Positions 28,273 through 31,119 of a DNA stretch of 64,000 nucleotides are shown one piece after another. The translations under genes and the position numbers were made by a program. Every line of letters starts with the position of its first letter. Position 1 is the first letter of the stretch. The DNA is taken from positions 310,001 through 374,000 of the forward strand of contig NZ_VHIN01000022.1 in assembly GCF_009805585.1 (NCBI RefSeq), read 5' to 3'. The notes below the pieces were generated by a model. The model ran no database searches. It saw only the letters and a list, made by a program, of their open reading frames with translations, and was not told where the DNA came from. The DNA comes from Glutamicibacter sp. JC586. GTDB lineage: Bacteria; Actinomycetota; Actinomycetes; Actinomycetales; Micrococcaceae.

Positions 28273-28450
28273 GCGACCACCTGAACTTGCCAACTGGGAA
28301 GAGTTCGAACGAGCTCACTGAAAGCTCGAAATGCTTCTGTCTGGCCATGTTGTTGACAGCAGTCTCAGGGTTAGAACTAGCTTTCGAATCTAATTCCACA
28401 GTGAGTAGATAAGTAGTACAAATTGTCGGTACTCGGTGGGAAAATTGATC

Positions 28451-30010
28451 ATGAGCTATCCAAGAAACGAAGAAGAATACGACGATGAAAATCGTCTCCC
28501 GCTGCGCCCTCCAGGCACTCGCAAGGAATCCCACGTGGACTCCTCGTTCGCTAATCAGCTCGATCACCAGATGTACAACGGTCCGGCCAAAAAACTGATT
28601 GATGAGCTTTACAACGCTGGGCCCGTAGATGGTCCGGGAGACGCACTGATTCGTCTTCAGAAAATTGGGAAGTTGCGAAGTTCGGTTGACGCGCTAACGG
28701 CCACGCTGTTGGCGGACTCGGTGGAACAAGTCAACCAATCATTCGCTGACATGATGGCAGTGCAACAAGCAAACTCACCTCAGGAGTACCTGGAAGCTCA
28801 GCGGAGTGCTGAATTCTATGGTGTTGATCCGGGCGATGACGAGACGATCAATTCCAATTTCATAGCTGAAGCGGCCGTTGCTCTTCGCGAAACTCCACAG
28901 AAAGTTAGCCACAGAATGTTTGTCGCCAAGGGGCTTCGACACGTCTGTACTAACACCCTCACCGCCTTGGCCGCAGGTGACATCACCGAGAAAGCTGCAC
29001 ATGACATCGTTAGGTTTTGTCAGGATCTCACGCCGGAACAGGTTAGCGTCATGGAAGAGAAGCTACTAGAAGCGGCCAAGACGGCTAGCGACAGCACTAT
29101 CTACCAAAAGGCAAAGCGATTCCACGACCGGATGAACCCAGAGGCGGCAGCGTCACGCCATGAGAAGTCCGCACAATCAAGGAAAGTCACTGAATGGTAC
29201 GACGCACACGGCATGGGCACCTTGAAGCTTTATCATCGAGCCGACGTCATTAAAGCTCTCTCTAGTACGTTGCGTTGGGTGGCAAATCAGAATAACGATC
29301 CGCAAGACACTCGAACCACAGATCAGTTACTGGCGGATGTTTATTCAGATGCCTTGGTCCACGGATGGCCCGGTTCTGAAGGAACGCCGTTGAAGCCAAG
29401 ACTGTCCATTACAATTCCTGCTTTGGATATGTTGGTCAATCCAGATAAGACGTTGGCTGATTTGGAAGGCTACGGGCCTATTCCGGTATCTCTGGCATTG
29501 GAGTTGGCAAAAGACGCACCGTCCTTCCATCGCGTACTCACGGACCCTTGGACCGGAGCTGTCATTGACGTTGAACGCAGGAACTATCGCCCAACTCAGG
29601 GTTTGAAAGATCTTCTGAGATTGCGGGATGTCCATTGTTGTTTCCCGGGGTGTCGACGTAGTGCTGATCGATCTGAAATTGACCACATCGATGACTGGGC
29701 TCATGGCGGGAAGACTGAGCGGGAAAACACTCACCTACTCTGCAAACAGCATCAAATGTTCAAGCACGCGTTGGGGTGGAAGGTCGTTGCGCGGGCGGAT
29801 GGAACCAAGGAATGGGTTACGCCCCACGGACTGAAAACCATTATCACTCCGGAGAGCATGAACCTAGTCGTCCGACCGGGCGGTACCGAAGATCGCGATC
29901 GGAGCTCCACCGAATCTACAGCGGAACCTTCGGTGCGGATGACTCCGGATATCAATCGGGTCCTAGGATATCCCATGGATCTTGAGCATCCGGAAACAGA
30001 AGCAAGCTGA
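28451..30010 (+). CDS. DUF222 / HNH endonuclease domain protein
   Basis: The 519-residue protein carries a long helical DUF222 region (roughly residues 60-330) and a C-terminal HNH nuclease motif: CCFPGCRRSADRSEIDHIDD, then HGGKTERENTHLLCKQHQ. The four cysteines and histidines fit a zinc-stabilised HNH fold with the catalytic His in SEIDHIDDW. Proteins of this type are multicopy in Micrococcaceae and mycobacteria; their role is not established. Base composition is lower in G+C than in many neighbours (28 of 60 in the sample at 29221-29280). The gene directly precedes the repeat array at 30036. An ATG (28451) is taken as start. Confidence 0.85.
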   Translation: MSYPRNEEEYDDENRLPLRPPGTRKESHVDSSFANQLDHQMYNGPAKKLIDELYNAGPVDGPGDALIRLQKIGKLRSSVDALTATLLADSVEQVNQSFADMMAVQQANSPQEYLEAQRSAEFYGVDPGDDETINSNFIAEAAVALRETPQKVSHRMFVAKGLRHVCTNTLTALAAGDITEKAAHDIVRFCQDLTPEQVSVMEEKLLEAAKTASDSTIYQKAKRFHDRMNPEAAASRHEKSAQSRKVTEWYDAHGMGTLKLYHRADVIKALSSTLRWVANQNNDPQDTRTTDQLLADVYSDALVHGWPGSEGTPLKPRLSITIPALDMLVNPDKTLADLEGYGPIPVSLALELAKDAPSFHRVLTDPWTGAVIDVERRNYRPTQGLKDLLRLRDVHCCFPGCRRSADRSEIDHIDDWAHGGKTERENTHLLCKQHQMFKHALGWKVVARADGTKEWVTPHGLKTIITPESMNLVVRPGGTEDRDRSSTESTAEPSVRMTPDINRVLGYPMDLEHPETEAS

Positions 30011-30035: not shown

Positions 30036-30451
30036 GTGAACATATTTTTCGTTCACTAAGTAGGTTTCTATCACCCATCATCACGCATCCGGCAACAGCG
30101 TTCAGGCTGTGAGCCTTAGGCTTTTGCGTCCAAGGACGGCTAGCGTGTTCAGATCATTTTCTTCATGAGCCGAAGTGAACATATTTTTCGTTCACTGCAC
30201 AGATCCCATTCACCGTAAACACGTATACAGGCAACAGCACGGAAGCTGCGAGCCTCATAGTTTCACGTCATGGGTGAGCTGGCGCCACTGGGCATTTTCG
30301 ACGCAAGATGAAGTGAACATATTTTTCGTTCACTAAGCACGTTTAAGGTAATGGTGCTGAAGAGGGAAACCTTGGCTTTTCACGCCTGCCACAAGCTAGT
30401 GCGTCTGGATAGTTCTGGTCTTGGTCTGAAGTGAATATATTTTTCGTTCAG
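30036..30451. repeat. degenerate tandem repeat of about 138 bp carrying a 21-bp palindrome (four copies)
   Basis: A 21-base element with arms GTGAAC and GTTCAC around ATATTTTTC occurs at 30036-30056, 30175-30195 and 30313-30333 identically, and at 30431-30451 with two changes. The starts are 139, 138 and 118 bases apart. The spacers are themselves related: GGCAACAGC occurs exactly 55 bases, and GAGCCT exactly 75 bases, after the core start in units one and two. Unit three looks like the same unit with about 20 bases missing. The array fills the whole gap between the DUF222-HNH gene and the esterase gene. No open frame fits it. Function unknown. Confidence 0.85.
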
Positions 30452-30468
30452 CCGATACGCTTGGAATC

Positions 30469-31119
30469 ATGACTTCATACGAAACAGCTCCGGTCGCAAT
30501 CATCTCCCGCAACGACGATTCCCGACTCGGCACCCCGTTGCTAGTCTTCCTGCATGGGTATGGCTCCAATGAGCAAGACCTGATGGGTCTGTCTCGGTAT
30601 CTTCCTGAGGAATTCACGTATCTGTCCGTGCGCGCACCCTTGAAGGCTGGACCGGGTTACAGCTGGTTCCCTTTAACGCAGGACATCGATTATTCGACGG
30701 AAGCGGTGGGTCAAAGCGTGCAGGCGCTCTGGTCACTTCTGCAGCCCTTGAGTGAACAGCATTCGTCGATTACTTTGCTCGGCTTTTCGCAGGGGATGGC
30801 CATGGCCACCTCGCTGGCACGCTACCAACGTGATTCGATCAAGGCGGTGGTCGGGCTTTCAGGATTCGCCGTAGAGCCACGCGATCTGCAGATGTTCGAC
30901 GATCGTAAACTAGTTGGATCGCCGTTGCCAATGTTCTGGGGACGAGATCTTGCGGACCCGGTCATTACTCGCGACAAAATTGCTTACACCTTGGAATGGA
31001 TTTCCAAGCACGTTGAGCTAACCAGCGAAACTTACCCGCAGATCGGGCATTCGGTCAGTATGGAAGAACTGGGAGACGTCAACGCATTCCTCAAAAAGAC
31101 CGTGCTCGAACAGTATTAA
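30469..31119 (+). CDS. phospholipase/carboxylesterase-type alpha/beta hydrolase
   Basis: The 216-residue protein has the oxyanion region FLHGYGSNEQDL, the nucleophile elbow LLGFSQGMAMA (Ser near residue 107), an aspartate in DLADPVI and the histidine in YPQIGHSVS. This is the layout of acyl-protein thioesterase and carboxylesterase YpfH-type enzymes. It probably hydrolyses small esters in the cytosol. It starts 17 bases after the last palindrome of the repeat array, so its promoter must lie within the array or further upstream. Confidence 0.87.
   Translation: MTSYETAPVAIISRNDDSRLGTPLLVFLHGYGSNEQDLMGLSRYLPEEFTYLSVRAPLKAGPGYSWFPLTQDIDYSTEAVGQSVQALWSLLQPLSEQHSSITLLGFSQGMAMATSLARYQRDSIKAVVGLSGFAVEPRDLQMFDDRKLVGSPLPMFWGRDLADPVITRDKIAYTLEWISKHVELTSETYPQIGHSVSMEELGDVNAFLKKTVLEQY

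Follow-up and report, generated by a model that had tools for sequence, protein, structure and literature searches.

In the window analysed here, a single stretch of 64 kb, an array of AT-centred palindromes lies immediately 3' of a gene encoding a DUF222-HNH protein, and this link between gene and array recurs in the genus and is nearly restricted to one clade of DUF222-HNH genes. We interpret the array as the cis partner of the gene that precedes it, such that the gene and its 3' array would form a recurrent, probably mobile or self-maintaining unit, a reading to which we assign a probability of about one half. The genus sample comprised 18 genomes, from Glutamicibacter and from strains labelled 'Arthrobacter', including the genome from which the window comes (G000).

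The array spans positions 30036-30451 and consists of three exact copies of the core GTGAACATATTTTTCGTTCAC and a fourth copy with two changes, all on the forward strand. Copy 1 (30036..30056) is located 25 bp past the stop codon of the HNH gene, copy 2 (30175..30195) aligns with the second copy of orthologous arrays, copy 3 (30313..30333) is identical to the first two, and the altered copy 4 (30431..30451) lies 17 bp ahead of the ATG of an esterase gene. The arms GTGAAC and GTTCAC flank the centre of the core, which gives the layout GAAC-N9-GTTC; an asymmetric centre kept the window copies from being picked up by a palindrome scan with 10-bp arms. The start-to-start spacing of the four cores is 139, 138 and 118 bp, and the spacers between them measure 118, 117 and 97 bp. 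Dinucleotide shuffling of the window, repeated 100 times, gave no core match. The rest of the G000 genome contains one further site within 3 mismatches of the core, inside an ORF of another contig, and no dispersed copy of the window's arm type. The positions given for the four cores in the initial annotation are confirmed, and the exact core, for which that annotation had asked about scatter, is not scattered across its own genome.

The spacers are 61-64% identical to each other while three of the cores are identical, in agreement with the earlier observation that the core is kept as the spacers diverge. The alignment scores, each set against the maximum from 100 shuffles, are 87.5 vs 59 for spacers 1 and 2, 60.5 vs 56 for spacers 1 and 3, and 52.5 vs 52 for spacers 2 and 3. 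Spacers 1 and 2 are homologous and about 36% diverged, and the alignments point to a decayed tandem array with a fixed core, clearly so for units 1 and 2.

The DUF222-HNH gene (28451..30010, forward strand) likely starts at the ATG at 28451, the listed ORF beginning with the GTG at 28436. Its product matches the Pfam families DUF222 (1.2e-17, 64.6 bits, cut-off 24.4) and HNH (1.2e-4, 22.6 bits, cut-off 21.4), and the residues of the HNH region are largely invariant in our alignment (A1). The PHROGs matches are to HNH endonuclease families only, and sequence searches of the PDB yielded only weak matches, the best being the HNH part of a Cas9. No transposase family was among the Pfam matches of the protein, and PADLOC and NCBIfam gave no match. 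Six DUF222 matches were detected in G000, and 5-11 in each of the other 17 genomes.

Directly ahead of the gene is a promoter-like element of the PafBC (DNA-damage) type, TGTCGG-N10-GAAAAT (28424..28445, forward strand), the sole match to the strict pattern when both strands of the 64 kb are considered, a looser pattern giving 5. The PafBC promoter form is TGTCGG-N10-TANNNT in the available part of PMC8151990, so that the window element departs from it in the first base of the -10 hexamer, a position at which our strict pattern permitted G or T. The recA gene of the same genome is preceded by TGTCGG-N10-TACTGT, which fits that PafBC form, and in addition by the SOS-box-like TCGAACATCTGTTCGG. 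Among the genes of the clade described below, 18 of 28 have the strict motif and 21 of 28 the loose one. The motif is present also in L086 and L089, the two deepest-branching of the 15 nearest relatives, and absent from the other 13, and so is not private to the palindrome-bearing clade; these counts have no bearing on the link between gene and array. Judging by the element, the HNH gene is probably damage-inducible.

A first survey with a relaxed palindrome search turned up arrays elsewhere, and the DNA 3' of 90 of the 141 DUF222 matches was read. A tree was built from 76 DUF222 proteins, leaving out two encoded at contig ends (L081 and L093); in it, 26 DUF222-HNH genes form one clade with support of 99/96. 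A fixed scan of the 700 bp downstream detected AT-centred palindromes 3' of 24 of these 26 genes (50 sites in 18.2 kb). One of the 24, L079, has its only site at +665, where it resembles sites of sister genes; setting it aside gives a fairer count of 23 of 26. The two genes without a scanned site, L099 and L130, narrowly miss the criteria of the scan. Among the 15 nearest relatives, the same 700-bp scan found 4 sites in 4 genes, each located beside gltX at +650 to +668; we read these gltX-adjacent palindromes, and that of L079, as a coding coincidence. Downstream of the 47 other DUF222 genes, the fixed scan found no palindromes in 32.9 kb. Within the clade, the coding sequences contain none in 42.5 kb, the upstream regions contain one in 26 kb, and the downstream stretches read backwards, as a control, contain 2. 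The orientation is mildly biased, with 50 sites vs 36 on the other strand. The first scanned palindrome lies at +21 to +33 after the stop codon in 19 of the 24 genes, the remaining first sites being at +1 (L095), +77 (L092), +560 (L120 and L124) and +665 (L079); a looser scan of L120 and L124 placed sites at +239 and +395/396. The proposed link to the neighbouring DUF222-HNH gene thus recurs in the genus, and arrays are found in relatives, another point on which the initial annotation had called for a check.

The nearest DUF222-HNH relatives (L072-L078, L083, L085, L098 and L183-L187) lack an array just after the gene and precede what we take to be an SRP-RNA-like sequence and a gltX-like gene, several of them presumably having a tRNA-like end upstream. 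At 15 more distant DUF222-HNH loci in other genera, no such array was found by eye within 500 bases or by a hairpin search of 700. In L250 (1370-2020, G011:C1), a clade gene is followed by a seven-copy array with spacings that alternate near 72 and 95 bp, a higher-order tandem duplication. In L243 (2690-2780, G000:C20), two more palindromes of the form TGACGGA..TCCGTCA lie past the first GTGACGG palindrome and have a less AT-rich centre; the AT centre is therefore not obligatory.

The upstream flanks of the clade genes fall into 10 clusters (28 genes) and the downstream flanks into 10 (26 genes), which amounts to about nine combined contexts because the upstream clusters split the esterase locus and the downstream clusters split others. 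The window's esterase gene (30469..31119, forward strand; an alpha/beta-hydrolase, Pfam Abhydrolase_2) is a flanking host gene outside the unit and has a homologue in all 18 genomes. By coordinates, a DUF222 match adjoins it in 7 of these (G000, G002, G004, G010, G012, G014 and G016), and palindromes are likewise present in all six genomes other than G000 that have a DUF222-HNH gene beside the esterase. Across the intergenic alignment of these seven genomes, the first two copies keep the same register although their arms differ, the second copy of G014 being degenerate. It is the HNH gene, not the esterase, to which the array belongs. An operator for the esterase, one form of the multi-site operator suggested initially, is not favoured, since such palindromes accompany the HNH gene also where its neighbours are different. 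Given the position of copy 4, a side effect on esterase expression is possible.

The array begins just past the HNH stop codon, so that the HNH transcript might enter it, and the hairpins of its units could then terminate transcription, make the mRNA more stable, regulate it, or yield small RNAs. We consider such an RNA element unlikely as the explanation of the array, although parts of the data are RNA-like. RNAalifold predicted two hairpins on 11 of the 26 first units, with a score of -8.6, whereas 200 column shuffles averaged -0.3 and none of them was as low; these 11 units were picked by eye from two subclades, and column shuffling is a weak control. The second hairpin occurs at the same place in these 11 units, with changes of the G.U type (C-G to U-G and A-U to G-U), but 15 of 500 pair shuffles scored at least as high in covariation. 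In the window, the corresponding stem, GGCAACAGC..GCTGTGAGCC (30091..30115, forward strand), a possible terminator, has an internal mismatch, and a similar hairpin in the homologous spacer 2 occupies 30230..30254 on the same strand. Rfam gave no match up to E 5.

The palindromes themselves look different. A looser scan yielded 60 copies, two of them doubtful (L099 at +269 and L101 at +300), and many are imperfect. Their outer TGA/TCA pairs, and the next two arm pairs are Watson-Crick in 74 of 120 cells, with several pair types, only 5 of the other 46 cells being G.T. Where the arms fail to pair, the opposed bases are for the most part A.A, A.G or C.T, not G.U, and the T run is within the palindrome instead of past a stem. 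The right half was fixed by the scans, and its better conservation therefore carries no weight as evidence. Overall, the pattern of arm pairs points more to a DNA dyad recognised by a protein than to a stem in RNA. The idea of a repeated RNA element is accordingly not favoured for the palindrome and holds to some extent for the second hairpin of some units.

If the palindromes are read as DNA, the reader could be an unlinked host regulator or nucleoid protein, the sites of which merely chance to accompany the clade. The sites are dyad-symmetric and AT-rich, and single copies are dispersed elsewhere; in seven loci (L218, L223, L227, L239, L246, L252 and L257), a dispersed palindrome near position 1501 is the tip of a long terminator-like hairpin. 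This reading appears improbable to us: the palindromes are nearly restricted to one gene clade, and their arms are lineage-specific, differing even between the paralogues of G000 (GTGAAC at C19, GTGACG at C20), both of which a single regulator could hardly read. The palindromes could instead be passive REP- or MITE-like repeats without a function, carried along with the gene and kept uniform by duplication and gene conversion. The homology of window spacers 1 and 2, the higher-order repeat in G011 and the dispersed copies in G003 and G017 are all compatible with this possibility, which nevertheless seems to have a low probability, given that the cores are identical despite the divergence of the spacers and that the position of the first copy is retained across lineages.

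The dispersed copies were sampled with an exact-pattern search of the 18 genomes, which returned 117 sites (0 in the backward control), labelled by hand as 50 array, 6 solitary-array and 61 dispersed; a relaxed pattern gave 0-19 matches per genus genome. After 15 dispersed sites with fewer than four of the five outer pairs were dropped, 26 of the remaining 46 have a half-site dinucleotide in common with the arrays of their own genome, compared to a mean of 11.0 under permutation of genomes, with 26 reached in 0.38% of the permutations, a test that leans on the related G003 and G017 (21 of the 46 sites), uses hand labels and ignores kinship.

The unit is present or absent at conserved intergenic sites of the genus. 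G001 encodes two DUF222 genes that are 96.8% identical over 1292 bp and have different left flanks, both reaching contig ends; the block that they share begins about 75 bp ahead of the ATG, with no palindrome at this start edge. Gene conversion could explain the identity. The flanks of one of these copies, on contigs C10 and C12, line up collinearly with an unbroken region of G005, roughly 170 bp long, that lies between homologous genes and contains neither a DUF222 gene nor an array, a filled/empty pair that constitutes one comparison and includes an inferred contig join in G001. Loss could explain the empty site, and G009 at the same place has kept the array and lacks the gene. Arrays without a DUF222 gene in the surrounding 13-14 kb are found also in L103 (6790-7080, G017:C5) and L104 (6090-6400, G003:C20), where either the gene was lost or the array spread.

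As the partner of the HNH gene, the array most likely provides predicted dimer-binding sites for the adjacent HNH protein, and perhaps cleavage sites; the initial suggestion of a nuclease target or recombination site may also hold. A structure model of the protein is good only for residues ~41-100 and 131-230. When residues 75-230 were compared with VIA-align, the first nine rows were Noc/ParB/Spo0J DNA-binding domains (Z 9.2-7.1 over 92-103 residues). For helical models VIA advises caution under a Z of about 13, a level that none of these rows reaches, and the entries ranked immediately below them are designed helical repeats (Z 7.0). The best Foldseek E for the model was 0.44, hhalign against 29 ParB regions scored 13.8 vs 13.3 for a reversed control, and neither the ParB N-terminal nor the HTH_ParB Pfam domain was found in 10 A1 members at E <=10, a search in which the HMMER filters drop most weak matches. 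Folding the N-terminal part from its single sequence gave a model of too low quality for use (mean pLDDT 47). A ParB/Noc-like DNA reader is thus a lead only.

The mechanism that we propose for the unit is as follows. DNA damage would turn on the HNH gene through the PafBC-type promoter, a dimer of the protein would bind the palindromes via an N-terminal helix-turn-helix-like domain, and the HNH domain would nick or cut the bound sites or DNA nearby. Repair would then copy or convert the element and keep the palindromes matched to the protein, and the sites might also restrain the nuclease or its expression. In a further-reaching version, which we consider rather unlikely, a damage-inducible HNH nuclease would recognise a private array and use breaks there for self-copying or maintenance, the specificity of the protein and the arms would co-evolve, and the unit would be a selfish element of two parts, a non-HUH counterpart of RAYT/REP with a ParB/Noc-like reader.

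DUF222-HNH genes are repeated in this genus, and the family includes 13E12 of M. tuberculosis. Neither an earlier description of a gene-palindrome unit nor a tested molecular function of the DUF222-HNH family was found in the available parts of the open-licence papers among the matches listed. Through the private DNA partner of this clade, the family gains a concrete substrate that can be tested, namely 21-bp sites, and the protein/site pairs across lineages offer a natural series for the study of shifts in DNA-binding specificity.

Two known systems do not fit. The LexA SOS box is GAAC-N4-GTTC, compared to GAAC-N9-GTTC for the window palindrome. CRISPR-like arrays have uniform, unrelated spacers and Cas genes, whereas the window spacers measure 118, 117 and 97 bp, two of them are related, and the four neighbouring proteins scanned have no match to a Cas family. 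A closer likeness is to REP/RAYT (TnpA-REP) systems, in which the adjacent gene encodes a tyrosine (HUH, Y1) transposase, replaced in the window unit by DUF222-HNH: a gene of a nuclease family lies beside lineage-specific palindromes, and some dispersed copies match the arrays of their own genome. The available parts of the REP literature (PMC2817692, PMC3733652, PMC8266576) describe such palindromes, which number >100 per genome (PMC2817692), unlike the few-copy window core (four plus one within 3 mismatches), which forms a tandem array 3' of the gene. With ParB-parS and Noc-NBS, the unit has dyad-symmetric sites in common, and Noc/ParB domains rank first for the model, but its protein contains an HNH domain and lacks sequence-profile support or a ParB Pfam domain. 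The half-site arrangement of parS also differs from that of the window palindromes. A change of specificity in ParB/Noc is covered in the available part of PMC7383237. The 13E12 proteins of Mycobacterium tuberculosis (REP13E12) likewise combine DUF222 with HNH and are encoded by several genes per genome. In the available parts of the respective papers, DUF222/REP13E12 is noted as repetitive in M. tuberculosis (PMC10589994), the RecA-dependent mitomycin-responsive genes include five putative HNH endonucleases (PMC8151990), and 13E12 HNH genes are assigned to a hypothetical SOS-linked repair system (PMC4181829); these parts mention no palindrome partner, whereas the window gene has both a 3' array and a promoter that resembles the PafBC type. 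By analogy, the best explanation of the gene and its array appears to be a REP/RAYT-like or Noc/NBS-like unit.
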